Shown in pieces: positions 3,352 through 59,673 of a DNA stretch of 64,000 nt. The stretch spans positions 29,109-93,108 of the forward strand of contig NZ_LGDE01000125.1 in assembly GCF_001279725.1 (NCBI RefSeq), in the 5' to 3' direction. The number at the start of each line of letters is the position of its first letter. Within the stretch, counting starts at the first letter, position 1. Below the pieces are notes generated by a model. It did not search any database. It saw only the letters and a program-made list of their open reading frames with translations, and was not told the origin of the DNA. Origin of the DNA: Streptomyces sp. WM4235 (lineage in GTDB: Bacteria; Actinomycetota; Actinomycetes; Streptomycetales; Streptomycetaceae). A program made the translations under genes and the position numbers.

Positions 3352-4260
3352 TCAGGACGCGTCGGGATCCGGCCGCTGCCCGTCCCGGGCCAGGACCGCG
3401 TTGAACTGGGCGCCGGTGAGCAGCGCCAGGTTGGTGAACCAGAGCCAGATGAGGAAGACCACGATCCCGGCGAGCGAACCGTAGAGCCGGCTGTAGGTGC
3501 CGAACTCGGTGTAGAGCGTGAAGAGCGCCGAGGCGGCGAGCCAGAGGATGGCCGCCAGCGCGCCGCCCGGAAGGCCGCGGCGGGTTCCCCGGGCACGTGC
3601 CGGGCCGGTGCGGAAGAGGATGAGGATCAGCGAGACGGCGATGACGAGCAGGGTCGGCCAGCGCAGCACGGCCATGGTGTCCACGCCCTCGTATCCGGCG
3701 GCGGCCGCGACGCGGCGGGCGAAGGGGCCCGAGGCGACCAGACTGGCCGCGCCGGTCACCAGCAGGCCCAGCAGCAGCGCGGCGGTGAGGACGAGGACGT
3801 GGGCGGCGCGCAGGGGCGGTCGCGTGTCGGGGAGTCGGTACATCGCGTGCAGCGCGCGGCGGAAGACCGCGAGGTAACTGGAGGCCGACCACAGGGCGCT
3901 GACGATGCCACTGGCCAGCAGCAGCCACATGGAGGACGGGTTCGCGGTCAGGGAGTCGAGGACCTCGCGGAGCGTGGCCGCTGACTGGGGCGGGGCGTAG
4001 GAGGTGAGGTCGAGGATCAGGCGCTCGCGGGTGCCCGGGCCGGCCAGCCCCACCAGGGAGACCGAGACCAGCAGTGCGGGCACGAGGGCCAGTACCGCGT
4101 AGTAGGTGAGTGCGGCGGCGTAGTCGGCGACGTTGTCGTCCCACACGCGCACCGCGGTGTCGCGCAGGGCGGAGCGGGTGCGCACGGCGAGCGCGACGGC
4201 GCTGTTCCCCTGGATCGCGGGGGTGGTGCGGGGCGCGGTGGGGGAAGTGTTCGATGCCAC
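3352..4260 (-). CDS. YihY/BrkB family inner membrane protein
   Basis: A 302-residue polytopic membrane protein. After a cytoplasmic N-terminus, VWDDNVADYAAALTYYAVLA is the hallmark first segment of the YihY/virulence-factor-BrkB family. The further hydrophobic segments are consistent with about six spans (for example LVPALLVSVSLVGLAG, MWLLLASGIVSALWSASSY, VLVLTAALLLGLLVTGAAS and IVVFLIWLWFTNLALLTGAQ). The C-terminal segment ends with the family's TGAQFNAVLAR motif. The function of the family is poorly known and the old RNase BN assignment is not supported. Divergent from the ion-channel gene at 4436. Confidence 0.88.
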   Translation of the reverse strand: MASNTSPTAPRTTPAIQGNSAVALAVRTRSALRDTAVRVWDDNVADYAAALTYYAVLALVPALLVSVSLVGLAGPGTRERLILDLTSYAPPQSAATLREVLDSLTANPSSMWLLLASGIVSALWSASSYLAVFRRALHAMYRLPDTRPPLRAAHVLVLTAALLLGLLVTGAASLVASGPFARRVAAAAGYEGVDTMAVLRWPTLLVIAVSLILILFRTGPARARGTRRGLPGGALAAILWLAASALFTLYTEFGTYSRLYGSLAGIVVFLIWLWFTNLALLTGAQFNAVLARDGQRPDPDAS

Positions 4261-15653: not shown

Positions 15654-15689
15654 CGGGGCCCGGCGTCGTGTGTCCGACGCCGGGCCCCG
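15654..15689 (-). terminator. Strong hairpin terminator
   Basis: CGGGGCCCGGCGTCG and its exact inverted copy flank a six-base loop (TGTGTC), giving a perfect 15-base-pair stem. It lies about 175 bases downstream of the minus-strand gene ending at 15865 and upstream of the AI-2E gene. The remainder of 15546-15864 shows nothing else recognisable. Confidence 0.75.
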
Positions 15690-18778: not shown

Positions 18779-18976
18779 GATGATGTCCCTTCTGGCGGCC
18801 TTCCGGCCGCGCGGGCGTGGGTCCGCGGGGCGCGGTGGGGAGCCGACCTCCCGAAATCATCGAACGCATGCCCGGGCGAACGCGTCTCACACCCGGTCGG
18901 ATCCCGCGTGCGGCGCCCGCCCGCGGGCGCGGCGCCCGCCCGCGGGGGCCGCCGGAACGGCCGCACAGGCGGGTGG

Positions 18977-19004
18977 GGGTGGACACCGTGATCGGTGTCC
19001 ACCC
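18977..19004. terminator. Hairpin, probable terminator
   Basis: GGGTGGACACCG pairs perfectly with CGGTGTCCACCC across a TGAT loop (12-base-pair stem). It is between two minus-strand genes and could stop transcription in either direction. The rest of 18779-18976 is GC-rich with a repeated CGCCCGCCCGCGGG element and no gene. Confidence 0.6.
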
Positions 19005-19047
19005 CTCGTCTCCGTGTGTGGGCTCTCATCCGCGCGTGGAACGAACG

Positions 19048-24162: not shown

Positions 24163-24583
24163 GACGGCGTGACCCCGCACCCTCGCGTACGGGCCGGCCC
24201 GCGACCCGGCGTCACGACGAACACGCTGCGTAGTGCGATGAATGGAACGGTACCGACGGGTACATGCCGTTTTGCGGAGCACCTGGGTGGCCCGCGGTCG
24301 GCCGGTGTCCGGGAACACGGTCTCGGAAGGCGGTGTCCCCGCAGCCGGACGGTCGTTGAGAAGAACGGTCAGCGAAGTGGACCACACCGAGTCCCGGGGC
24401 CCAGGCCCCGGGACTCGGTGCTGCCCGGCCGACCCGATGGAGGTGTACGGGGCGCACCCCGCGCGGTGGGCCTGTTGAGCGTCCCTTACGCCCCGCACGG
24501 AGGTCCCAGGCCGAGCGACCACCGGCGGCGGGACCGCGGCGGGACCGACCGAAAACCACCCCCGGGCCACGGTCACCCAAAGG
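24163..24583. other. Intergenic interval without a recognised gene
   Basis: About 420 bases between the VOC and TetR genes. The only clear structure is a perfect hairpin at 24385-24420. The stretch 24230-24380 is less GC-rich than its surroundings and has no ORF with a ribosome-binding site. Confidence 0.45.
24385..24420 (+). terminator. Perfect 16-base-pair hairpin terminator
   Basis: CACCGAGTCCCGGGGC and GCCCCGGGACTCGGTG are separated by CCAG. It lies 222 bases past the VOC stop, so a transcript of the intervening DNA may end here. Confidence 0.75.
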
Positions 24584-43769: not shown

Positions 43770-44381
43770 ATGACGAAGGTCCTGGTCGTGCACAGCGTTC
43801 GCCTCGTCCGCTCCGCCCTCGCGGCACTGCTGAGATCCGAGGGCCCCTTCGAAGTCACCGCCGTGGGCTGGCGGACCGCGGTGCGCGAGACGGAGTCCTT
43901 ACGCCCCGACGTCACGGTCGTCGACCTCGACTGTCCGGGCGCCGCTCCGCTCCTGGCGGGGGCGGGCCGCAGGGATCGGCACGCCTCCTCCCCCGCGTCC
44001 TCGCCGATACTGGTTCTGGCCTCGGCGGGTACGCCCGGATCGCTGCGGAGGGCGTTCCGGGCACCGGTGCTGGGGTGTGTGGACAAGGACGGCTCGCCGG
44101 GCCGCCTGGTACGGGCCGTGCGCCGGGTCGCGGCCGGTGAACGTTTCGTCGACGCCTCGCTCGCGTCCGCCTACATGGAGGCGGACCCGGTACCGCTGAG
44201 TCCGCGCGAACTCAGTGTGTTGGCCCGTGCGGCGGAGGGCGATTCGATAGCCGAGATAGCCAGCGCCCTGCACCTGGCCAGCGGCACCGTCCGCAACTAC
44301 ATGGCCGCCGCCACGCGCAAGGCCGGCGCACGCAATCGCATCGACGCCATCCGCATTTCGCGCAGGGAAGGCTGGGTCTGA
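43770..44381 (+). CDS. ramR: RamR/AmfR-like LuxR-type response regulator
   Basis: A 203-residue protein. The N-terminal receiver (1-125) has VTVVDLDCPG with the usual acceptor-position Asp, but the acidic pair near residues 8-9 is replaced (VLVVHSVRLVRS). The C-terminal LuxR/GerE domain has LSPRELSVLARAAEGDSIAE and IASALHLASGTVRNYMAAA. Leucine codon 44 is TTA (43899-43901). Its position at the far end of the ram genes, convergent with ramB, matches ramR/amfR, the activator of the ramC promoter. GAAGGAG precedes the ATG. Confidence 0.88.
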   Translation: MTKVLVVHSVRLVRSALAALLRSEGPFEVTAVGWRTAVRETESLRPDVTVVDLDCPGAAPLLAGAGRRDRHASSPASSPILVLASAGTPGSLRRAFRAPVLGCVDKDGSPGRLVRAVRRVAAGERFVDASLASAYMEADPVPLSPRELSVLARAAEGDSIAEIASALHLASGTVRNYMAAATRKAGARNRIDAIRISRREGWV

Positions 44382-44420
44382 GACCGCGGCCGACGGCGAG
44401 CCGAGGCCGGGGCCGAGAGC

Positions 44421-44440
44421 GCCCCGCCCGGAGGCGGGGC
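44421..44440. terminator. Bidirectional terminator between ramR and ramB
   Basis: GCCCCGCC and GGCGGGGC around CGGA form an eight-base-pair stem between two convergent genes. Confidence 0.55.
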
Positions 44441-44445
44441 CCGTC

Positions 44446-46224
44446 TCAGTCCTCCCCCGCGGCGTTCCAGAGCCCCACCAGGTCCCGGTACAAGGGCGAT
44501 CGGCCGGGGAGTTCCTCGTGCGTGCCGCACACCGCCCGGGTCCCGTCCAGTACGAGGACCCGGTCGGCCCGCGCCGCCGACGAGATCCGGTGGGCCACCA
44601 CGACCAGCGTGCCCGGACGGGCGGCGAGGGCCCGCTCGGCACGCGCCTCGGTGTGCGGGTCCAGGTGACAGGTGGCCTCGTCGAGCAGCAGCAGCGGAGC
44701 GGGTGAGAGGTGGGCCGCGGCCAGAGCGAGCTGCTGGCACTCGCCCTGGGACAGTCGCTGCGGCACGACGGCCCCGTCCAGGCCGCCGAGCCGCTCGACG
44801 AGGGCGCCCACGCCCAGGGCGACGACCGCCTCGCGCACCCGGGCGTCGTCGGGTGGACGCGCTCCGGGGCACAGGTGGGTCAGGTTCTCCCGGACGGTGC
44901 CGGTGAAGACGTAGGCCTGCTGGGGCAGCAGGGTGCGTCGAGGATCCGGCTCCGAGGCGTCCCGCTCTCCGCGTGCGGCCGCCCCTGCGACCAGGACCGT
45001 GCCCCGGTCGGGGCTGAGCAGCCCGGCGAGCAGCGCGGTGAGCGTCGACTTGCCGATGCCGCTCGGGCCGACGACGGCGAGGTGCTCGCCCGGGCGGACG
45101 ACCAGGTCGAGGTCCTCCAGCACGGGGGCCGCCCGGGGGCCGTAGGCGAAGGTCACGCCGCGCAGCTCCGCGGCGGACGGCGGGACGGGCGGCGTCGCGG
45201 GCGACGGTACGGGCGACGGGCGCGCCGGGGGCAACGGGGAATGCGAGGGGTTCGGGGCGGGCTCGGGCTCGTGGAAGCGCTCCAGTACCACCAACAGCCG
45301 GGTGCCGGCGGATCCGAGGGCCGTCATCAGGGAGTGCAGGGCGGGCAGCAGCGCCTGTACGAGGTAAGTGAGCGCGCCCACCAGGGTCCCGGCGGTGACC
45401 CCCCGGTCCAGCAGCCACGGGGTCGCCACCAGCAGGGAGATCACCGGCAGCCGGCCCGCCGCGCCGAGGGCGACGGTACGCACGGCCGCCCACCGGGCGA
45501 GGCGGCGGGTCAGCCGCTCCTGCGCCCCGATCAGGGTCTCCACCCCGGAGGTCGTGCTCGCTCCCCCGCCGCAGGCCACGATGTCGCGCAGTCCCTCACC
45601 GACCGCGCCCACCCGGCGCGACAGCGCCTCGTCGGTGTCGAGGGAGTCGCGTTGCACGCCGGCCATGGGGCGCAGCGTGGCGAGAAAGAGGCCGAGGCCC
45701 AGGAGCAGCGGGGGCAGTACGACGAGGAGCAGCACGGGGGCGAGGGCCGCCATGCCGGCCAGCGCGCCCGCGGCCGTGAACACGAACGAACGGGCGGTGA
45801 GGACGATGCCCGCGAAGGAGTCCCGGGCCATCTCCGTCTGCTGGGTGAGCCGGGAGACGGCGCCGGCGTCCGCGGCGCGGGACGGGTCGGCGACGGCCCG
45901 GTCGAGGGCGTGCCGCACGGCCCTGCGCACGAGGCCGTCGCGCAGCGGTTCCACCAGGTCGGCGAGGGCGGCGAAGACCCCGCGCAGCGCGAGGGCGCCG
46001 AGCAGGGCGCCGAGTCCGGCGACCACGAGCCAGCCCAGGCCGACCGCGGTGCGCCCGGCGAGGAAGCCGTCGTCGAGGGCGCGGGCCACGCCGTAGCCGG
46101 TGAGGAAGGTGTGGGCGGACTCCAGGAGCGACCAGCCCCCGAGTCGTGCCAGGGCGGGGCTGCGCCCTCGCAGGAACCGGCGCGCGTCGGGGCTCACGCG
46201 CCGCCAGGTGTCGTGCTCGTTCAC
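44446..46224 (-). CDS. ramB: RamB, SapB-exporter ABC transporter half
   Basis: A 592-residue half-transporter. Six membrane spans lie in the first 320 residues (GLGWLVVAGLGALLGALALR, VLLLVVLPPLLLGLGLFLAT and others), followed by an ATPase domain. The Walker A is VVGPSGIGKSTLT and the Walker B PLLLLDEATCHLD has the catalytic Glu. The signature is the divergent LSQGECQQLAL instead of LSGGQ. The H-loop is VVVAHRISS. It starts at GTG 46222-46224, overlapping the ramA stop (GTGA). With RamA it should form the heterodimer that exports the lanthipeptide. Confidence 0.88.
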   Translation of the reverse strand: MNEHDTWRRVSPDARRFLRGRSPALARLGGWSLLESAHTFLTGYGVARALDDGFLAGRTAVGLGWLVVAGLGALLGALALRGVFAALADLVEPLRDGLVRRAVRHALDRAVADPSRAADAGAVSRLTQQTEMARDSFAGIVLTARSFVFTAAGALAGMAALAPVLLLVVLPPLLLGLGLFLATLRPMAGVQRDSLDTDEALSRRVGAVGEGLRDIVACGGGASTTSGVETLIGAQERLTRRLARWAAVRTVALGAAGRLPVISLLVATPWLLDRGVTAGTLVGALTYLVQALLPALHSLMTALGSAGTRLLVVLERFHEPEPAPNPSHSPLPPARPSPVPSPATPPVPPSAAELRGVTFAYGPRAAPVLEDLDLVVRPGEHLAVVGPSGIGKSTLTALLAGLLSPDRGTVLVAGAAARGERDASEPDPRRTLLPQQAYVFTGTVRENLTHLCPGARPPDDARVREAVVALGVGALVERLGGLDGAVVPQRLSQGECQQLALAAAHLSPAPLLLLDEATCHLDPHTEARAERALAARPGTLVVVAHRISSAARADRVLVLDGTRAVCGTHEELPGRSPLYRDLVGLWNAAGED

Positions 46225-48137
46225 CGGGCCGCCCCCTGACCGCTCGGGCCGATCGGGTCGGCCGTGCGGGCCGGCCCGGGATCGGGCCCGGGCGCCGGCG
46301 CGGGCTCCGGACCGGGCGCGGGCGCGGGCTCCGGACCGGGCGCGGGCGCGGGCTCCGGTCGCGCCCCCGCGGCGAACACGGCCCGGTAGTACGGATCGCG
46401 CCACAACTCGACGTGCGTGCCGGTGGCCCGAACTCGTCCCTCTTCCAGCCACACGACGAGGTCGGCCCGGGCGGCCGAGGAGATCCGGTGCGCGACGACG
46501 ATCCGGGTGCCGGCCCGGACCTGTTCCGCGACGGCCCGCTCGACCTCGCGGGCGGTGACCGTGTCGAGGCTGGAGGTGGCGTCGTCGAGGATCAGCAGTC
46601 GGCCGGCGCGGCAGAACGCCCTTGCCAGGCCGAGGCGTTGGGCTTCCCCGCCGGACATGGGGGCGTCGGCCACCGGCGTGTCGTACCCCCGGGGCAGGCG
46701 GCGTACGAACAGGTCCGCACCGGCCGCCCGGGCGGCCCCGCGCACCGCTTCGGGGTCCGGCGGTGGGCCCGATCCGAACGCGATGGCGTCGCCCACGCTG
46801 TCGCCGAGCAGGGCGGGCCGGTGGAAGGCGTGGCCGACGTCGCGGCGCAGGGCTTCGGCGGTCAGGTCCCGCAACGGGACACCGTCCAGCAGCACCTGCC
46901 CGCTGTCGGGGTCCGCGAGTCGTCCGGCGACGGCGGCGAGCAGCGTCTTGCCGGAGCCCGAGCCGCCCACGACGGCCGCCGTGGTCCCGCCGGGGACGAG
47001 CAGGTCGATGTCGCGCAGTACCGCGGTTCCGTCGCGGGTCACGCGTACGCCGCGCAGTTCCAGGGTGCCGGGGCCGCCGTCGGGCAGCCGCCGGTCGCCG
47101 TGTTCCAGCGCGGGCAGGTCGAACAGTTCGGCGGTGCGGCGGGCGGCGGCCCGGCCCCGCACCGCGGCGCTGAGTTTGCCGGTGACGGCCCCGATGCCGG
47201 CGGCGAGGCCGGCGTAGCGCACGGCGGCGAGGAGTTCGCCGACGTCGAGCGCGCCGGAGGACAGGCGGATGCCGCCCACGCCGAGGACGACGTACAGCAG
47301 GAGCGGCATGAGGGCGGTGGTGCGGGCCATCGTCGCGCCGTACACCTGCCACATCCGGCGACCCTCGGTGTCGAGGTCGGGCAGCCGGGCGAGGATCCTG
47401 GCGCGTTCCCTGGCGGCGGTGCCGGCGGCGGCGATGGTGCGCGCCCCGGCCAGGGCCTCGACGAGTCGGCCCGCGGTCGCGAGTTGCGCCCGCTGGTAAC
47501 GGGAGACGATGGCGGAGGAGTCGCGGGCGAAGGCCCTCAGCAGGAGGACGAGCGGGGGCAGTCCCGCGACGAAGGCCAGTGCGGTCCAGGGATCGATGAC
47601 GAACAGCGCGACGAGTCCCCCGATCGGGGGCAGCAGCGCGGCGATCCCGGTCGCGAGGGTGGCCGGCACGGTTCCGGCCTCGGTGGCGTGCGCGGTCAGT
47701 CGCGCGGCGATCTCGCCGGGGGCGAGCCGGGCCGCGTGGTGCGGCGCGGTGCGCAGCAGTCGGGAGAGTCCCAGCCGGCGCAGCCAGGCCGTGGAGCGGG
47801 CGTCCACCGCGCCGGTGAGCCGGGTCGTGGCGGCGTCCAGGAACACCTCGGCCACGATGACGGCGGCGCACAGCAGGGTCCAGTACGGGGCGGCCGGATC
47901 GCGGCGGAGCAGGAGGTCGAGGGTGAGGCCGAGCAGCGCCGGTTCGGCGAGGGCGGCGACGGAGGCGGCGGTCGCGCATCCGAGCACGGCGCCGGCCCGT
48001 CCGGTGCTGTGCCGGGCGGCTTCGCGGAGTGCGCGATCGGCGGAGCGGTGGGCCTCGGGGCCCGTGGGGGTCGCGGTACCCCGGGAGCGTTCGTGGGCGA
48101 GGACGGCCGGTTCCGGCGGGTCGTCGTGCGGGGTCAT
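46221..48137 (-). CDS. ramA: RamA, SapB-exporter ABC transporter half
   Basis: A 638-residue half-transporter. It has N-terminal membrane spans (about residues 45-330) and an ATPase domain. Walker A VVGGSGSGKTLLA has Lys397, the signature is the canonical MSGGEAQRLGLA, and Walker B is RLLILDDATSSLD. Residue 519, normally the catalytic Glu, is Asp, which suggests a degenerate site as in other heterodimeric exporters. The C-terminal 50 residues are PEPAPAPG repeats encoded by a 24-base DNA repeat. CAGGAG precedes the ATG. It follows ramS after a hairpin. Confidence 0.88.
   Translation of the reverse strand: MTPHDDPPEPAVLAHERSRGTATPTGPEAHRSADRALREAARHSTGRAGAVLGCATAASVAALAEPALLGLTLDLLLRRDPAAPYWTLLCAAVIVAEVFLDAATTRLTGAVDARSTAWLRRLGLSRLLRTAPHHAARLAPGEIAARLTAHATEAGTVPATLATGIAALLPPIGGLVALFVIDPWTALAFVAGLPPLVLLLRAFARDSSAIVSRYQRAQLATAGRLVEALAGARTIAAAGTAARERARILARLPDLDTEGRRMWQVYGATMARTTALMPLLLYVVLGVGGIRLSSGALDVGELLAAVRYAGLAAGIGAVTGKLSAAVRGRAAARRTAELFDLPALEHGDRRLPDGGPGTLELRGVRVTRDGTAVLRDIDLLVPGGTTAAVVGGSGSGKTLLAAVAGRLADPDSGQVLLDGVPLRDLTAEALRRDVGHAFHRPALLGDSVGDAIAFGSGPPPDPEAVRGAARAAGADLFVRRLPRGYDTPVADAPMSGGEAQRLGLARAFCRAGRLLILDDATSSLDTVTAREVERAVAEQVRAGTRIVVAHRISSAARADLVVWLEEGRVRATGTHVELWRDPYYRAVFAAGARPEPAPAPGPEPAPAPGPEPAPAPGPDPGPARTADPIGPSGQGAAR
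46303..46358 (-). repeat. 24-base tandem repeat inside ramA
   Basis: The unit beginning GGCTCCGG recurs at 46303, 46327 and 46351 and encodes the PEPAPAPG tail of RamA. Copy number is likely to vary between strains. Confidence 0.8.
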
Positions 48138-48163
48138 CCGCGGCGGCTCCTGAGAGGTGGGTC

Positions 48164-48193
48164 GGGGCCCGGACGGCGAACCGTCCGGGCCCC
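48164..48193 (-). terminator. Intra-operon hairpin between ramS and ramA
   Basis: GGGGCCCGGACGG and CCGTCCGGGCCCC flank the tetraloop CGAA, a perfect 13-base-pair stem, starting 20 bases after the ramS stop. It should terminate many transcripts and leave ramS (and ramC) more abundant than ramAB. Confidence 0.8.
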
Positions 48194-48213
48194 GTACAGG
48201 CCTGACGACCTGG

Positions 48214-48348
48214 TTAGTTACAGGTCGTGATGCTCAGGCTGCTGTCTCCGCAGAGCAGCAGGCTCGCGCGGCTTCCGCCGCCCGTCATCGCGGCCTCGGT
48301 GATCTCTTCCTTGGGGGTTTCCATCGACTGCAGGTCAAGAAGCGTCAT
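48214..48348 (-). CDS. ramS: RamS/AmfS, SapB precursor peptide
   Basis: A 44-residue precursor. The leader is MTLLDLQSMETPKEEITEAA and the C-terminal core includes SRASLLLCGDSSLSITTCN, essentially identical to the SapB core. Two Ser-x-x-x-Cys-like segments (ASLLLC and SSLSITTC) supply the residues dehydrated and cyclised by RamC. SapB is the surfactant that lets aerial hyphae leave the aqueous medium. Relative to the SapB start TGSRAS known from S. coelicolor, this peptide has two extra Gly (TGGGSRAS). The ATG overlaps the ramC stop (ATGA). Confidence 0.93.
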   Translation of the reverse strand: MTLLDLQSMETPKEEITEAAMTGGGSRASLLLCGDSSLSITTCN

Positions 48349-50981
48349 GTCAGTTCCTCTTCTTCTCCGGGGATGTACCGATGGGTCACGGCCCCTTGCG
48401 GGACCGGCTTGGGGGCCGCTGCGGCGTCGCGCAGCGGCGGGAGGAACGGCAGGTGCGCGCGCCCGCCGGGCGCGGCGCTGCCGAGGGCGAGGAGAGCGCC
48501 GGCCGTGCCCGTGGACAGGTCCATGGACAGGCGCATCATCTGCTCGCCGGGGAAGGCCAGTTGGCCTTGGTAGGGGACGGCGTGCCGGGCGAGGGCGTCG
48601 ATCTGCCGCGCGATGTCGTCGGGCCGCGTCCCGGGTCCGGGGGTCGTGGTCCGTGCGAGGTGCAGGATCATGCCGGCCGCGCCGCGGAACAGTCCGGGTT
48701 GGGCGTAGAAGGTGGCCTGGGCGGCCGCCACGATGCCGCGCCGGGCCTCCTCGAAGCGCGGGTCGGCGCCGTGCTCCAGCCAGTCGTCGAGCACCATGCC
48801 GATGCCGGCGCTGCCCTCGCCCAGATAGGGCATGGTCCGCCAGCCCTCGTTGACCTGGAGAGTGCCGAACGCGCTGGTCACGCAGTGGTCGAGGTCGCGG
48901 TGCAGGGCTTGTCCGGCTCGCGCCAGGAGTTCCGCGTCGCCGGTGCGTTCGTACAGGCGCAGGAAGAGCAGGGCGGGACCGGCGTTGCCGTACAGGAGTC
49001 CCGCCCGGGTGAGGTCGGGGGCGGAGCGGGCGACGAGTTCGGCGCAGCGCAGGGCGGCGTCGTGCAGGGCGCTCTCCCCGGTCGTGGTGCCCAGGGCGTC
49101 CAGGGCGAGGCCGACTCCGGCGAGGCCGCTGTGCAGGTCGGGGCCGACGGTCTGCCACGGTTGGCGCAGCAGTTGCTCGGCGAGGGCGAGGGCGCGTTCA
49201 CGGTGCCCGAGCCGGTCGAGGGTCCAGGCGGTGCCGGCGAGGCCGTCGTAGAAGCCGAGGGGTGTGCCGGAGGCCGGCTCCTCGGTCCGTTTGAGCAGCC
49301 ACTTCTCGGCCTCGGGCCAGGGTTCGGCGCCGGTCTCGGCGAGGGCGTAGAGGACGCCCGCGGCGCCGTGTCCGAAGCCGGTTCCGCCGCCCGCCGTGGC
49401 GAATTGGGCGATGTCGCCGGGGAAGAGCCTGTCGTCGCGGTCCAGGGTGGCGGAGGCGCGCAGGGCGGCCGTCATGGAGGCGCGGGCGCGGGGCCAGTCC
49501 CCCGGTTCGACGGGCAGGTACGGGCCGGTGGGTACGGTCGGGCGATGGCCGGGCTCGCCGGGCGGCGGGTCGTAGAGGATCTCCTCCACGGCCTCGTCGA
49601 GGAAGGCCCTCGGTACGGGGAACTGTTCGGCGGCGATGTCGGCCAGATGTGTGGCCTTCGCCCGGTCCAGTACGAACAGGCTGGTCAGTGGCAGGAACAG
49701 GGCGAGTCTGAGGCAGGCGAGGGCGTAGCGGTCGACGGAGAAGCCGCGTCGTCCGGCGGGGGCGACGAACGCCGGGTTGGCGACGGTCTGCCGCAGCCCT
49801 TCGTCGACGTGGGCGGCGGCCTCGAAGTCCAGGAGCGCCACGGAGGGTTCGCCGTTCTCGTCCTCCGTCACCATGATGTTGAACAGGTGCAGGTCGTTGA
49901 AGACGACCCCGCGGGCGTGCACGGCCTCCACGGCCTCCGTCACCCGCCGGTGGATCGTCAGCGCCCACCGCGTGTAGGAGGCGAGTTCCTCCGGGTCGGG
50001 TTCCGCCTCGATCAGGGGGTGGCGGCGGGCGAAGTACGTGTTGAGCGGCTTGCCCTCCAGGTACTGCAGGACGAGGAAGTGGTGGTCGCCGACGGTGAAG
50101 GTGCCGCGGACGGACGGGACGCAGTCCAGGCCCTCCAGTCGTTCCAGGGCGGTCCGCTCGCGGTGCAGCCGGGCCACGGCGTCGGCTCCGTCGGCGGCGA
50201 GTCCCGCGTGGGGGCGGGCCTCCTTCAGCACCACCGGTTCGCCGGTGCGGCTGTCCGTGCCGGCGTAGACGCCGCCTCCGTTGGAGAAGTGGAGCGCGCG
50301 CTCGATCGTGTAGGGCACGTCGGTGAGCGTCACGGCCGAGCGGGCGTCGAGGTGCGGCTTGAGGAAGGCCGGGAGGTCGACCCACTCGGGCGGTTGGAAC
50401 ACCGGCCCGCGGGGGTCCGGGACGAGGGTGCCGTCGGGGGTCTCGATCGCCGGCACTAGTTCGCCCCGCGCGTCGTAGCAGTGCCGCAGGGTAAAGCTGC
50501 CGTAGCGCAGGTGGACCGGTCCGGCGCCCCAGCGCAGATCGCTCAGGATGTACGGTCCGGGCTCGCCGGTCAGCAGGGCGTCGAGGTCCTCGGCGATGCG
50601 CCGGCACTGTTCCTGGTCGGCCGGGTAGACGGTGATGAACTTCCCGCCGGCCGCGCGGTCGGCGTACTTGGCGTTGCGTATGTGCAGCAGGTGGCGGCTC
50701 GGCACGAACTTGAAGGCGATGCGCCGGGGCACGCAGTAGGCGTGGACGCGGTCGAGGATCGACTCGGCGTTGTCCAGACAGGCGGAGACGTGGATCTTCC
50801 AGCCCTGGGCGGGGAGTTCGACGCCGACGGGGCGCAGCGCGTACCAGTCGCCGGTGCGGTGCGAACGCCACCCGGTCGGTACGGGAGCGAGGGCCGGGCC
50901 GTAGTTCTCGTCGGCCCGTCGGTACGGGGCGTCGTAGAACCAACGGTCGGCGTCGCAGAACGCGGCGTACCCCTTGTTCAC
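48345..50981 (-). CDS. ramC: RamC/AmfT, class III lanthipeptide synthetase
   Basis: An 878-residue trifunctional enzyme. The N-terminal 220 residues are the lyase-like region (MNKGYAAFCDADRWFYDAP at the start). The kinase domain (about 225-480) has VVLKEAR with Lys253, VFNDLHLFNIMV with Asp363, and LLDFEAA with Asp385 (DFE in place of DFG). The C-terminal LanC-like cyclase domain (about 530-870) lacks the Cys-Cys-His zinc ligands (GLLYGNAGPALLF, GWRTMPYLGEGSAGIG), as in class III enzymes. It phosphorylates Ser in RamS, eliminates phosphate and forms the rings. The GTG at 50981 gives VNKGY, matching the known RamC start. Confidence 0.92.
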   Translation of the reverse strand: MNKGYAAFCDADRWFYDAPYRRADENYGPALAPVPTGWRSHRTGDWYALRPVGVELPAQGWKIHVSACLDNAESILDRVHAYCVPRRIAFKFVPSRHLLHIRNAKYADRAAGGKFITVYPADQEQCRRIAEDLDALLTGEPGPYILSDLRWGAGPVHLRYGSFTLRHCYDARGELVPAIETPDGTLVPDPRGPVFQPPEWVDLPAFLKPHLDARSAVTLTDVPYTIERALHFSNGGGVYAGTDSRTGEPVVLKEARPHAGLAADGADAVARLHRERTALERLEGLDCVPSVRGTFTVGDHHFLVLQYLEGKPLNTYFARRHPLIEAEPDPEELASYTRWALTIHRRVTEAVEAVHARGVVFNDLHLFNIMVTEDENGEPSVALLDFEAAAHVDEGLRQTVANPAFVAPAGRRGFSVDRYALACLRLALFLPLTSLFVLDRAKATHLADIAAEQFPVPRAFLDEAVEEILYDPPPGEPGHRPTVPTGPYLPVEPGDWPRARASMTAALRASATLDRDDRLFPGDIAQFATAGGGTGFGHGAAGVLYALAETGAEPWPEAEKWLLKRTEEPASGTPLGFYDGLAGTAWTLDRLGHRERALALAEQLLRQPWQTVGPDLHSGLAGVGLALDALGTTTGESALHDAALRCAELVARSAPDLTRAGLLYGNAGPALLFLRLYERTGDAELLARAGQALHRDLDHCVTSAFGTLQVNEGWRTMPYLGEGSAGIGMVLDDWLEHGADPRFEEARRGIVAAAQATFYAQPGLFRGAAGMILHLARTTTPGPGTRPDDIARQIDALARHAVPYQGQLAFPGEQMMRLSMDLSTGTAGALLALGSAAPGGRAHLPFLPPLRDAAAAPKPVPQGAVTHRYIPGEEEELT

Positions 50982-51015
50982 TCCTGCTCCCTCGGTCGGT
51001 GACAGGGACGAAGGT

Positions 51016-51083
51016 GTCACGCGGGGCGTTGGCCCCGACAGTCGCCGCTGTCACCGATCGGATGTGCAGTACGCACGAGTCAC
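51016..51083. promoter_or_regulatory. Candidate RamR-type direct repeats upstream of ramC
   Basis: GTCAC occurs three times in the same orientation (51016, 51050, 51079) within the ramC promoter interval, spaced about three helical turns apart. Further up, a minus-strand GATAAT (revcomp of ATTATC near 51147-51152) could be a -10. Binding by RamR is an inference. Confidence 0.35.
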
Positions 51084-51255
51084 TTGGCGGGTCGGGATGG
51101 GCCGTCGGGGTGAAGCCGCGGCACGCACCGCGCCGCCTCCCATCCGATTATCTGACTGACCGTAGATTCCTTGCGTCCGGGGAGCACCGGCCGTCAGACC
51201 GGTCCCCTTCGCTGCGACCGTCGGCGTACGGTCCGGTCCCGCCCGGGAGAGTGCC

Positions 51256-51798
51256 ATGCGTTCTCGTGTCGTCGCCGCCGCCCTGCTCCTCGCCCTGGGC
51301 CTGTCGCTGACGGGCTGCTCGTCCGACGGGGCCGACCCCGCCACCCGAGGTGCCGCCGGCGCGCCGGCCGCAGGCCGCCAGACGGCCCCCTCCCACCTGC
51401 GCTTCACCGCCAAGACCCTGGACGGCGCGGTGTTCGACGGTGCGGCGCTCGCGGGTAAGCCCGTGCTGTTCTGGTTCTACGGGGCCGCGTGCGCCGAGTG
51501 CCCTGCCCAGGCCTTCGAGACCGCGGCCAAGGCCGACCGCTACGTCGGGCGCGTACACGTGGTGGCCGTCGCGGAACCGGGGGCGGGCAACGGCCTGCAG
51601 GGCTTCGCCGCCCCGGCCGGGGCGGGCCGGCTCCCGCACCTCTCCGACGTCGGCCACGCCCTGCGGGACCGCTTCCACGCCGAGGGCATCAACACCTATG
51701 TGCTGCTCGACGAGGACGGCGAGGTCCTCTACAAGGGCGCCGGCGCGGAGGGCGACAAACTCGACGGGGAGCTCGCCGCCCTCGCCTCCGGCGTCTGA
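51256..51798 (+). CDS. thioredoxin-fold (TlpA/ResA-like) lipoprotein
   Basis: A 180-residue exported lipoprotein. The signal peptide ends in LSLTGCSS (lipobox Cys about residue 21). A linker is followed by a TlpA-like fold: FTAKTLDGAVFDGAALAGKP, then VLFWFYGAACAECPAQAFET with a C-A-E-C active site, and TYVLLDEDGEVLYKGAGAEG as the cis-Pro-less strand region. Such proteins reduce or oxidise disulfides outside the membrane. It is divergent from ramC. GGGAGAG precedes the ATG and TAGATT at 51164-51169 is a plausible -10. Confidence 0.82.
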   Translation: MRSRVVAAALLLALGLSLTGCSSDGADPATRGAAGAPAAGRQTAPSHLRFTAKTLDGAVFDGAALAGKPVLFWFYGAACAECPAQAFETAAKADRYVGRVHVVAVAEPGAGNGLQGFAAPAGAGRLPHLSDVGHALRDRFHAEGINTYVLLDEDGEVLYKGAGAEGDKLDGELAALASGV

Positions 51799-52122
51799 CG
51801 GGGGCGGGTCGATCGCACACCGGAGGACCGGGAGCCGGTGCCGGGCCGCGCGGGCGGCACCGTCGGCCCCCGGCAGGTCCGGTTCGACCGATCGACCCGG
51901 GCGCGGGTGCCTGACCGCGGGAGATGGCCGCGGTCACTCAATGCGCCCGTGCCGCGACGGGGTGTCACGCGATGCCCGACGGGGCGCCGGGCGACCGTCT
52001 CCGGCGCCTTCCGGACGGGCCCCGCGCCCTGCTCGACCGGCGCCGCCCCGGCCCCGCGAACCGCCCCGTCGGCCGAGAGAAGAGCGCGAATCACGACCCC
52101 GACGGCCATGCGGTGCTACAAA
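51799..52122. other. Intergenic interval
   Basis: About 325 bases, GC-rich, with no gene recognised. It ends at the TAGTCT promoter of the phosphatase-kinase gene. Confidence 0.4.
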
Positions 52123-52128
52123 TAGTCT
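52123..52128 (+). promoter_or_regulatory. -10 element (TAGTCT) of the sensor phosphatase gene
   Basis: TAGTCT lies 36 bases before the GTG at 52164, giving a leader of about 30 bases that includes GGGGAC as ribosome-binding site. Confidence 0.5.
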
Positions 52129-52163
52129 GTGACCCATCCTTGCAACCCGTACCGGGGACGTCG

Positions 52164-54806
52164 GTGCGGTCACTGAGCCGGAATCGCCCGCGAAGCGTCG
52201 CCCGACAGGTATTCGTCCTTCAGGTGGCGATCGTGGTGCTGCTCGCGGCCGGAGCGGTCCTGGCACTGGTGCTCCAGTCCCGCCACGACGTCGACCGGGA
52301 GGCCCGCACCCGTTCGGTCTCGGTCGCGCAGACGGTCGCCCATTCGACCGGGATGTGCGCGGCCCTGCGTTCACCCGACCCCGCGAAGACCCTCCAGCCG
52401 CTCGCCGAGTCCACGCGCAAGGACGCCGGGGTGGACTTCATCGTCGTGATGGACACCGAGGGGATCCGCTACAGCCATCCGCTGCCCGACCGCATCGGCA
52501 AGCGGTTCGTGGGCACCATCGAGCCCTCCCTCGCCGGCCAGGTGCACACCGAGAGCGTGCAGGGCCCGCTCGGCAAGGAGATCCAGGCCATCGTGCCGGT
52601 CTACTGCGACGGCAAGGTCGCGGGACTGGTGTCGGCCGGGCTCACCGTGAAGAACGTCTCCGGCGTGGTCGACCGCCAGCTCCCCGTCATCCTCGGGGCC
52701 AGCGCGGCCGGACTCGCCCTCGCCACCGTGGGCGCGTGGCTCATCAGCAGGCGACTGCGCCGCCAGACCCACGGGCTCGGCCCCGAGGAAATGACCCGTA
52801 TGTACGAGCACCACGACGCGGTGCTCCACTCGGTCCGCGAGGGGGTGCTCATCACCGACGGCGGCGGACGGTTGCTCCTCGCGAACGACGAGGCGAAACG
52901 CCTGCTGAAACTGCCGGCCGACGCCGAGGGCCAGTACATCGGGAATCTCACCGGACTCGACCGGACCGTGTGCGACCTGCTGCTGTCCGGCCGGGTCGCC
53001 ACCGACGAGGTGCACGAGGCCGGGGAACGACTCCTGGTGATCAACCAACGGCCGACGCGTCCCGGCGGCGGGCCCGAGGGGGCCGCGGTCACCATCCGGG
53101 ACTCCACCGAGATGCGCGTCCTCAGCACCCGCGCCGACGCGGCCCGGCGACGGCTGAGGCTGCTGTACGACGCCGGGGTCGGCGTCGGCACCACCCTCGA
53201 CGTCGGGCGGACGGCCCAGGAACTGGCCGACGTGGCCGTTCCGCGGTTCGCGGACTTCGCGACCGTCGAGCTGGCGGAAGCCGTGCTGCACGGGGACGAG
53301 CCGAACAGTACGGCGCCCGACCTGCTCCGCACCGGTTTCAGCGGCATCGCGGACGACGTGCCGCTCTACCCGCGCGGCAGGCTGATCGACTTCCGACCGT
53401 CCACCCCCCAGGCTCGCGGCCTCACCACCGGCCGGGCCGAACTGATCCCCGATCTCGCCGACGCGCCGGGCTGGTACGCGCAGGACCCGGAGCGGGCGCA
53501 GGCCATCCTCGACTACGGCGTGCACTCCCTGATCACAGCCCCCCTCAAGGCGCGGGGCGCGGTGCTGGGCCTGGTCAACTTCTGGCGGTCGCGGAAGGAC
53601 GAGCCCTTCGACGAGGAGGACCTGTCCCTCGCCGAGGAACTCGTGGCCCGGGCCGGTGTCACCATCGACAACGCCCGCCGCTACACCCGCGAGCACGCCT
53701 TGGCCGTGACCCTCCAGCGCAGTCTGCTGCCGCGCGACCTGCCCGAGCAGAGCGGCGTCGAGGTGGCCCATTTCTACCTGCCGGCCCAGTCCGGGGTGGG
53801 TGGCGACTGGTTCGACGTGATCCCGCTGCCCGGCAGCAGGGTCGCGCTCGTCGTCGGCGACGTCGTCGGCCACGGGTTGCACGCGGCGGCGGCCATGGGA
53901 CGACTGCGTACGGCCGTGCTCAACTTCTCCTCGCTGGACCTGCCCCCCGACGAACTCCTCACCCGACTCGACGACCTCGTCCAGTACATCGACCAGGGCG
54001 GGGACGGCGGATCCGACGGCGGCCTGCTCGGGGCGACCTGCCTCTACGCCGTCTACGACGCGGTGACGCAGCGCTGCACGGTGGCACGCGCCGGGCACGT
54101 GCCCCCGGCGATCGTGCGGCCCGACGGCAGTGTGGAGATCCCCGAGCTCCCCGCCGGCGCGCCCCTGGGCCTGGGCGGCTTCCCGTTCGAGTCGACGGAG
54201 TTGGAGCTGCCGGAAGGCTCCCAGCTGGTGCTGTACACCGACGGGCTGATCGAGGACCGCGCCCGCGACATCGACGAGGGTCTCGATCTGCTGCGGGCGG
54301 CGCTCGCCCACGCGGACCGCAAGCCCGAGGACACCTGCCGGGCCGTTCTCGCGCAACTGCTGCCCGTGCGCTCCCGCGACGACGTGGCGCTGTTGGTCGC
54401 GCGGACGTCGGCGCTGCCGACGGACCGGATCGCCGAGTGGGACGTGCCCTTCGAACCGAGTTCGGTGGGCGTCATGAGGGCTCACGCCATGCGGAAGCTG
54501 GAGGAATGGGGCCTGTCCGAGCTCGCGTTCGGCACCGAGCTGGTACTGAGTGAACTCATCACGAACGCGATCCGCCACGGCTCCGCGCCGGTGCGCGTCC
54601 GTCTGCTGTTCGACCGGATGCTGACCTGCGAGGTCTTCGACGGCAGCAGCAGTTCACCCCGTCTGCACTACGCCACCACCACGGACGAGGGTGGCCGCGG
54701 ACTCTTCCTCGTGGCCCAGATCAGCCGGCGTTGGGGAGCCCGGTACACGCCCGAGGGCAAGGTTCTCTGGTCCGAACAGGCGTTGCCGGACCCCGAGGAC
54801 GTCTAG
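52164..54806 (+). CDS. membrane sensor with PAS, GAF, SpoIIE phosphatase and HATPase domains
   Basis: An 880-residue protein. Membrane span 1 is at about residues 16-38 (VFVLQVAIVVLLAAGAVLAL) and an extracellular CitA/DcuS-like sensor follows (KDAGVDFIVVMDTEGIRYSH, then VPVYCDGKVAGLVSAGLTV). After span 2 (about 176-198) come a PAS domain (HHDAVLHSVREGVLITDGGG), a GAF domain (about 340-510) and a SpoIIE phosphatase (GGDWFDVIPLPGSRVALVVG, DVVGHGLHAAA). The protein ends in a GHKL ATPase (LVLSELITNAIRHG, GGRGLFLVAQISRRW). It joins both arms of a partner switch, an anti-sigma-type kinase and its opposing phosphatase, under an extracellular signal. Confidence 0.85.
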   Translation: MRSLSRNRPRSVARQVFVLQVAIVVLLAAGAVLALVLQSRHDVDREARTRSVSVAQTVAHSTGMCAALRSPDPAKTLQPLAESTRKDAGVDFIVVMDTEGIRYSHPLPDRIGKRFVGTIEPSLAGQVHTESVQGPLGKEIQAIVPVYCDGKVAGLVSAGLTVKNVSGVVDRQLPVILGASAAGLALATVGAWLISRRLRRQTHGLGPEEMTRMYEHHDAVLHSVREGVLITDGGGRLLLANDEAKRLLKLPADAEGQYIGNLTGLDRTVCDLLLSGRVATDEVHEAGERLLVINQRPTRPGGGPEGAAVTIRDSTEMRVLSTRADAARRRLRLLYDAGVGVGTTLDVGRTAQELADVAVPRFADFATVELAEAVLHGDEPNSTAPDLLRTGFSGIADDVPLYPRGRLIDFRPSTPQARGLTTGRAELIPDLADAPGWYAQDPERAQAILDYGVHSLITAPLKARGAVLGLVNFWRSRKDEPFDEEDLSLAEELVARAGVTIDNARRYTREHALAVTLQRSLLPRDLPEQSGVEVAHFYLPAQSGVGGDWFDVIPLPGSRVALVVGDVVGHGLHAAAAMGRLRTAVLNFSSLDLPPDELLTRLDDLVQYIDQGGDGGSDGGLLGATCLYAVYDAVTQRCTVARAGHVPPAIVRPDGSVEIPELPAGAPLGLGGFPFESTELELPEGSQLVLYTDGLIEDRARDIDEGLDLLRAALAHADRKPEDTCRAVLAQLLPVRSRDDVALLVARTSALPTDRIAEWDVPFEPSSVGVMRAHAMRKLEEWGLSELAFGTELVLSELITNAIRHGSAPVRVRLLFDRMLTCEVFDGSSSSPRLHYATTTDEGGRGLFLVAQISRRWGARYTPEGKVLWSEQALPDPEDV

Positions 54807-55402: not shown

Positions 55403-55500
55403 CCCCGCTCCCGCCGGTGACGCCCGCTCACCCGGCGCGTCCGTACCGGCGACCGCGACATTCCGCTGCCCCCTCCCCACGGAGGGGGCAGTTCGGCGTT

Positions 55501-55543: not shown

Positions 55544-55577
55544 GCCCCGGCCGGTCTGGGGGGTGACCGGCCGGGGC
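55544..55577. terminator. Hairpin terminator between convergent genes
   Basis: GCCCCGGCCGGTC and GACCGGCCGGGGC flank TGGGGGGT, a perfect 13-base-pair stem between the LppU-like and DUF7144 genes. The remainder of 55403-55793 has no gene; an AT-rich ACATCTATATGAAC sits at about 55621-55634. Confidence 0.7.
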
Positions 55578-59622: not shown

Positions 59623-59673
59623 CACACCGGGATGCCACCTCGCGGTTCGGTCGCGAGGTGGCATCCCGGTGTG
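59623..59673. terminator. Perfect 22-base-pair hairpin, bidirectional terminator
   Basis: The arms at 59623-59644 and 59652-59673 (beginning CACACCGGGATGCC and ending GGCATCCCGGTGTG) are exact inverted copies around a GTTCGGT loop. It separates the convergent hydrolase and SHOCT genes and is the strongest hairpin in the window. Confidence 0.85.

Follow-up and report, generated by a model that had tools for sequence, protein, structure and literature searches.

We analyzed a 64,000-nucleotide stretch of DNA from Streptomyces sp. WM4235 (contig NZ_LGDE01000125.1, positions 29,109 to 93,108; below, the window is this whole stretch) and found on its minus strand the genes ramC, ramS, ramA and ramB, in that order, with ramR convergent to them and a strong hairpin between ramS and ramA (Table 1). 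SapB, the peptide for which such a locus is named, is a surfactant that aids the aerial growth of colonies. The hairpin is real and is present in nearly every SapB-like operon that we examined, and it is probably functional.

An earlier note, made from the sequence of the window, had described this gene order and called the locus a SapB-type cluster. The coordinates hold at the level of single bases, and the family matches of RamC and RamS support the identity. RamC matched the profile NF038151 with 1165.5 bits (cut-off 575), fell under the cut-off of the class IV model NF038150 (407.4 vs 650 bits), and contains the domains RamC_N (PF25816), Pkinase and LANC_like. RamS matched PF19402 (RamS) with 68.2 bits (cut-off 24.3) and NF033212 over its full length with 69.4 bits (cut-off 25). 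The genome has one match each for RamS and for the N-terminal domain of RamC. RamR matched GerE with 48.8 bits, and its match to Response_reg (26.1 bits) was under the cut-off of 30.2. None of the five genes has an internal stop. That is, the locus has what characterizes the SapB/AmfS family: a precursor that passes the family model, an adjoining LanKC gene, two ABC exporter genes and a convergent RamR. Judged by its sequence, it is an ordinary and complete SapB-type class III lanthipeptide operon of a known kind, and the cluster itself adds little. Its nearest named relative is that of Streptomyces sp. H27-H5 (RamC 98%), among the best 80 named loci, from which very near genomes may be missing.

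Table 1. Features of the ram locus, in coordinates of the window
Feature	Position	Strand	Description
ramC	50981-48345	-	class III lanthionine synthetase LanKC; GTG start, TGA stop, 878 aa
ramS	48348-48214	-	SapB precursor peptide; 44 aa
Hairpin between ramS and ramA	48164-48193	-	GC-rich; 13 bp perfect, UUCG loop, without a U tract
ramA	48137-46221	-	ABC exporter half; 638 aa; ABC_tran, ABC_membrane
ramB	46224-44446	-	ABC exporter half; GTG start, 592 aa; ABC_tran
8-bp GC hairpin	44421-44440		candidate two-way terminator in the convergent ramB/ramR gap, from sequence and fold
ramR	43770-44381	+	LuxR/GerE-type response regulator; 203 aa, convergent
TTA codon 44 of ramR	43899-43901	+	rare leucine codon, decoded by the bldA tRNA; the only TTA in ramR
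TGAC-type boxes	51014-51086	-	candidate RamR sites upstream of ramC, from 23 aligned sequences (the window plus 22 relatives)

The perfect 13-bp hairpin between ramS and ramA, also described in the earlier note, is borne out by both sequence and fold. The stem has 14 pairs if C48194-G48163 is counted, and the UUCG loop is on the transcribed strand. The hairpin lies 20 nt from the ramS stop and 26 nt from the ramA ATG, and a Shine-Dalgarno-like AGGAG for ramA is placed after it. The folding energy was -35.4 kcal/mol for 51 nt, and none of 200 shuffled sequences folded as well (z -5.2). The 8 bases following the 14-pair stem include a single T, and a terminator scan of the window did not list the site. 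No match at gathering score to Rfam was found in the window. Perfect stems of at least 13 bp occurred at six sites in the 64-kb window, this one included, vs three in 20 dinucleotide shuffles. Other long perfect hairpins are at 15654-15689, 18976-19005, 24385-24420, 55466-55491 and 55544-55577, and a further one, of 22 bp, is at 59623-59673.

We compared the window to 228 loci, for a total of 229, and found a RamS-like peptide in each. Genomes of the genus contributed 148 loci (among the matches listed, the window's own included), and the other 80 were the named loci; the SapB/AmfS family was present in 206 of 392 such genomes. Once identical regions were removed, 201 were left. In each, we took the best stem within 150 nt downstream of the precursor stop codon, allowing one mismatch and G-U pairs; for the window this stem was -33.8 kcal/mol. 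The number of SapB-like operons was 124 for the threshold of -15 kcal/mol and 123 for that of -20 kcal/mol, as slightly different patterns were used.

In 118 of the 123 non-identical SapB-like operons, ramS was followed by a stem with an energy of -20 kcal/mol or lower. Such stems were found at the ramC/ramS junction in 18/123 and at the ramA/ramB junction in 12/66 (each scanned over the 100 nt ahead of the downstream start and the 50 nt beyond it), and inside ramC in 0/97. Three of the five operons that missed the threshold (L064, L084 and L154) fold whole into long imperfect stems; in the other two (L013 and L135) a long stem is not clear. The starts of ramA in the relatives were taken from tblastn frames and are rough, with 13 of 105 picks preceding the end of the hairpin. 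It could be argued that the hairpin is a functionless by-product of high GC content, as stems better than -15 kcal/mol arose in 32% of shuffled SapB-like regions. However, such stems were present in 97% of the actual regions and in 24% of control stretches 600-750 nt further on, and this difference, together with that between the sequence after ramS and the inside of ramC, makes the by-product explanation hardly credible. Similar hairpins were found beyond the SapB-like operons: 83% of AmfS-like loci (15/18) had a stem better than -15 kcal/mol (shuffles, 32%; control, 17%), as did 75% of 59 loci with other precursors (shuffles, 21%; control, 15%).

The relatives also indicate that pairing in the stem is retained through changes in sequence. 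Among 104 distinct SapB-like hairpins, not counting that of the window, 39 contained CCCGG(G/A)CGG and 19 contained GGCG(C/T)CCCGG; the other 46 were left unaligned. Alignment A1 is the first group minus L011 and L058, plus the window and its close relative L028 (39 rows), and alignment A2 is the second group (19 rows). In A1, 37 cells were changed on both sides of a pair, compared to a mean of 15.1 in shuffled alignments (0 of 500 as high), although these cells are not independent events because related species share changes. The covariation score was 0.172 vs 0.060 in shuffles for A1 and 0.154 vs 0.082 for A2. Stem positions that changed together had GC, UA, UG and CG at one pair; two other pairs alternated between CG and GC and between GC and AU. 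A1 has four pairs with double changes, and in three of these (columns 11/46, 12/45 and 21/36) both bases of the window depart from the commonest pair yet remain paired; L028 carries a U-G pair at columns 17/40. In 18 of the 39 rows, columns 11 and 46 do not pair. Further pair types exceeded shuffles weakly (62 of 500 as high for A1, 20 of 500 for A2). When partners were slid, paired cells dropped from 94.9% to 30-56% (A1) and from 91.7% to 42-48% (A2).

These comparisons bear on whether the inverted repeat acts as DNA, that is, as a binding site for a regulator or as a mobile repeat. The repeat is perfect, and a related stem start, CGGGGCCCGG, appears again at 15654-15689, as this notion might predict. 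In contrast, the genome contains the exact 28-base hairpin core a single time, which led us to reject a repeat element, and the relatives keep the pairing while sequence, offset and loop vary, unlike a conserved binding site. We consider a role as DNA very improbable. Because the hairpin is conserved at the ramS-ramA junction, a function at an internal 3' end of the transcript is likely.

The earlier note had proposed a terminator that separates ramCS from ramAB. Placement and conservation are consistent with this, but the case for a terminator in the strict sense is weakened. The GC-rich stem-loop of a canonical intrinsic terminator is there and the U tract directly after the stem is not, so the hairpin is not one of that type. 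Of the 118 stems, 29 were followed by no T within 8 nt, 53 by 1, 25 by 2 and 11 by 3; that is, by U count, 107 of 118, the window's included, were U-poor (0 to 2 T). In Streptomyces clavuligerus, 3' ends were sorted at -23 kcal/mol and 3 U per 8 nt (PMC8269248). With -33.8 kcal/mol and one U, the stem in the window falls within the class called HS-U-lack in that work. Read-through at HS-U-lack ends is between that at U-rich terminators and that at unstructured ends, and they leak more than the U-rich ones (PMC8269248). U-poor structured ends have been proposed to be I-shaped terminators or enriched ends of Rho-terminated transcripts (PMC8914203). Because read-through in this class is intermediate, we favor a leaky terminator or a 3' barrier. 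Our reading, to which we assign a probability of roughly 0.6, is that the locus is a SapB-type operon under RamR in which the hairpin after ramS acts as a leaky, U-poor terminator, as a barrier to 3' exonucleases, or as both, so that ramCS would be expressed more than ramAB.

It is also possible, but unlikely, that the hairpin marks a nuclease end: an RNase III site, or a stop for 3' trimming that stabilizes ramCS, in either case without termination of transcription there. The length and GC content of the stem would suit an exonuclease barrier, and the missing U tract also favors this explanation. U-poor structured ends may be those of Rho-terminated transcripts (PMC8914203, PMC8269248), which is likewise in its favor. 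Stems of 13 to 20 bp are short for cleavage by RNase III, which counts against that form of the explanation. An RNase III study found that ramR mRNA was not cut (PMC2936110), which argues the other way; a test of ramCSAB is not mentioned in its accessible part.

Several observations weigh against a leaky terminator or barrier after ramS. Long perfect hairpins are common in the window (7 sites of at least 11 bp), and therefore the unusual point is the place of this one inside an operon. The alignments were chosen by stem motif, and pairs with a double change were no more numerous than in shuffles (119 of 500 as high for A1, 140 of 500 for A2). The percentages of paired cells are inflated because the best stem in 150 nt was picked and the rows were chosen as hairpins. 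Ends inside operons are richer in unstructured sites and poorer in structured ones than terminal ends (PMC8269248), so a strong stem within an operon is of the less usual sort. Finally, in Streptomyces coelicolor ramS, ramA and ramB follow ramC in time, with a similar time course (PMC5650626). This shared time course points to read-through and is not a measure of any drop. In literature searches, none of the titles or abstracts listed dealt with a hairpin between ramS and ramA, which is not proof of absence. The main text of the Term-seq papers on S. lividans and S. avermitilis does not mention ramS, ramC or SapB, and that of the S. griseus Term-seq paper does not mention amfS or AmfR.

We also looked at how the genes are joined. 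Overlaps of 4 bases between ramC and ramS (ATGA, 48348-48345) and between ramA and ramB (GTGA, 46224-46221), as given in the earlier note, are present at the base level. In the 123 non-identical SapB-like operons, ramC and ramS overlap by 4 bases in 46 and otherwise in 9; they are separated by 0-25 nt in 7 and by >25 nt in 60, and one was undetermined. For ramA/ramB, both genes were found in 77 of the 80 named loci, and a start codon allowing the 4-base overlap was present in 66 of these, by a permissive test in which the start codon has to exist; 3 had another start nearby and 8 had none near, and the remaining 3 loci had no usable match. Because of these counts, the ramA/ramB overlap looks like a trait of the family and the ramC/ramS overlap looks lineage-dependent. 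The prediction that RamC and RamS are translated nearly equally found no support: a Shine-Dalgarno-like GAGGA precedes the ATG of ramS by 6 nt, so the enzyme and its substrate need not be made in equal amounts, and in the relatives a gap of >25 nt is more frequent than the 4-base overlap.

RamS of the window ends in ...TGGGSRASLLLCGDSSLSITTCN, with three glycines before SRAS, and relatives such as L076 and L082 end in ...TGSRASLLLCGDSSLSITTCN, with one. We take the latter to be the ending of S. coelicolor RamS as well. The two extra glycines pointed out earlier are thus extra relative to the TGSRASLLLCGDSSLSITTCN form, but they are not a special feature, and we rejected them as a novelty: the run varies from 1 to 7 in relatives, and three is the second most common length. 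In the 150 loci that have this core, the run was 1 in 91, 2 in 4, 3 in 39, 4 in 2, 5 in 5, 6 in 7 and 7 in 2; among the 82 distinct peptides with the same core, the corresponding numbers were 40, 4, 25, 2, 4, 5 and 2. The glycine codons are mostly GGC or GGT (runs of at least 4 glycines, plus the window and L028). No C39 peptidase was listed among the domains of RamA and RamB, so the leader is probably removed by a protease other than RamA/RamB. Among the references of PMC9011353 is one dealing with Zn-dependent proteases that act on class III leaders. For a peptide of the window with four dehydrations, the computed [M+H]+ is 2141.01 if it starts at TGGGSRAS, 2039.96 at GGGSRAS, 1982.94 at GGSRAS, 1925.92 at GSRAS and 1868.90 at SRAS; for the one-glycine form starting at TGSRAS it would be 2026.97.

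The TTA codon in ramR, absent from the earlier note, implies control of ramR by bldA. A TTA was present in ramR of 52 of 70 relatives, at about codon 44 in 29 (three partial matches were set aside, and positions are by ungapped count). A TTA in ramR or ramC of most such clusters has already been reported (PMC4255298). Of 79 long relatives, 72 had a convergent ramR match downstream, 6 had none in the fetched stretch, and 1 had it upstream on the same strand. In L086, the best RamR match (3503-4099) is upstream of ramC on the same strand. Of the TGAC-type boxes upstream of ramC, one is invariant in the 23 aligned sequences and the others nearly so; they are candidate sites for binding by RamR. 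On the other side of ramC, the window encodes a redoxin-like protein (51256-51798) and a large sCache/GAF/SpoIIE phosphatase (51924-54806).

Together, these features suggest how the locus may work. RamR, gated by its TTA codon, would switch on a single ramCSAB transcript. RamC would dehydrate and cyclize RamS, RamAB would export the product, and the leader would be cut off by a protease encoded elsewhere. The hairpin after ramS, as a leaky I-shaped terminator, a barrier to 3' exonucleases or both, would leave ramCS abundant and ramAB less so. A broader notion, which we offer tentatively and hold to be somewhat doubtful, is that class III operons (SapB, AmfS and others) share a conserved, sequence-variable RNA valve: a U-poor hairpin directly downstream of the precursor gene, which would fix how much synthetase and precursor are made relative to exporter and would be under selection for pairing, not for sequence. 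If true, the valve would explain how a single transcript can supply abundant precursor but little exporter, and would provide a simple, adjustable element for producing these peptides in other hosts. The hairpin also offers a clean test of the efficiency of termination at U-poor hairpins in Streptomyces.

The closest known systems are the ramCSAB/ramR loci of S. coelicolor and S. lividans, which have the same genes, order and product as the window (PMC4255298, PMC5650626). The window differs in having three glycines before SRAS vs one in the S. coelicolor-type form seen in L076 and L082. The amf operon of S. griseus likewise encodes a class III morphogen, AmfS, and a hairpin follows the precursor gene in most AmfS-like loci, as counted above, but the core sequence of AmfS differs from that of RamS in the window. 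The HS-U-lack or I-shaped ends of Streptomyces resemble the hairpin in the window in having a strong GC stem and <3 U in 8 nt (PMC8269248, PMC8914203); those are mapped 3' ends, whereas a 3' end at the hairpin is predicted. In the ars1 operon of Bacillus, an inverted repeat inside the operon diminishes expression of the full operon, much as we propose for the hairpin after ramS (PMC4562236). The genes there are unrelated and the effect was measured, whereas that of the hairpin in the window is predicted.

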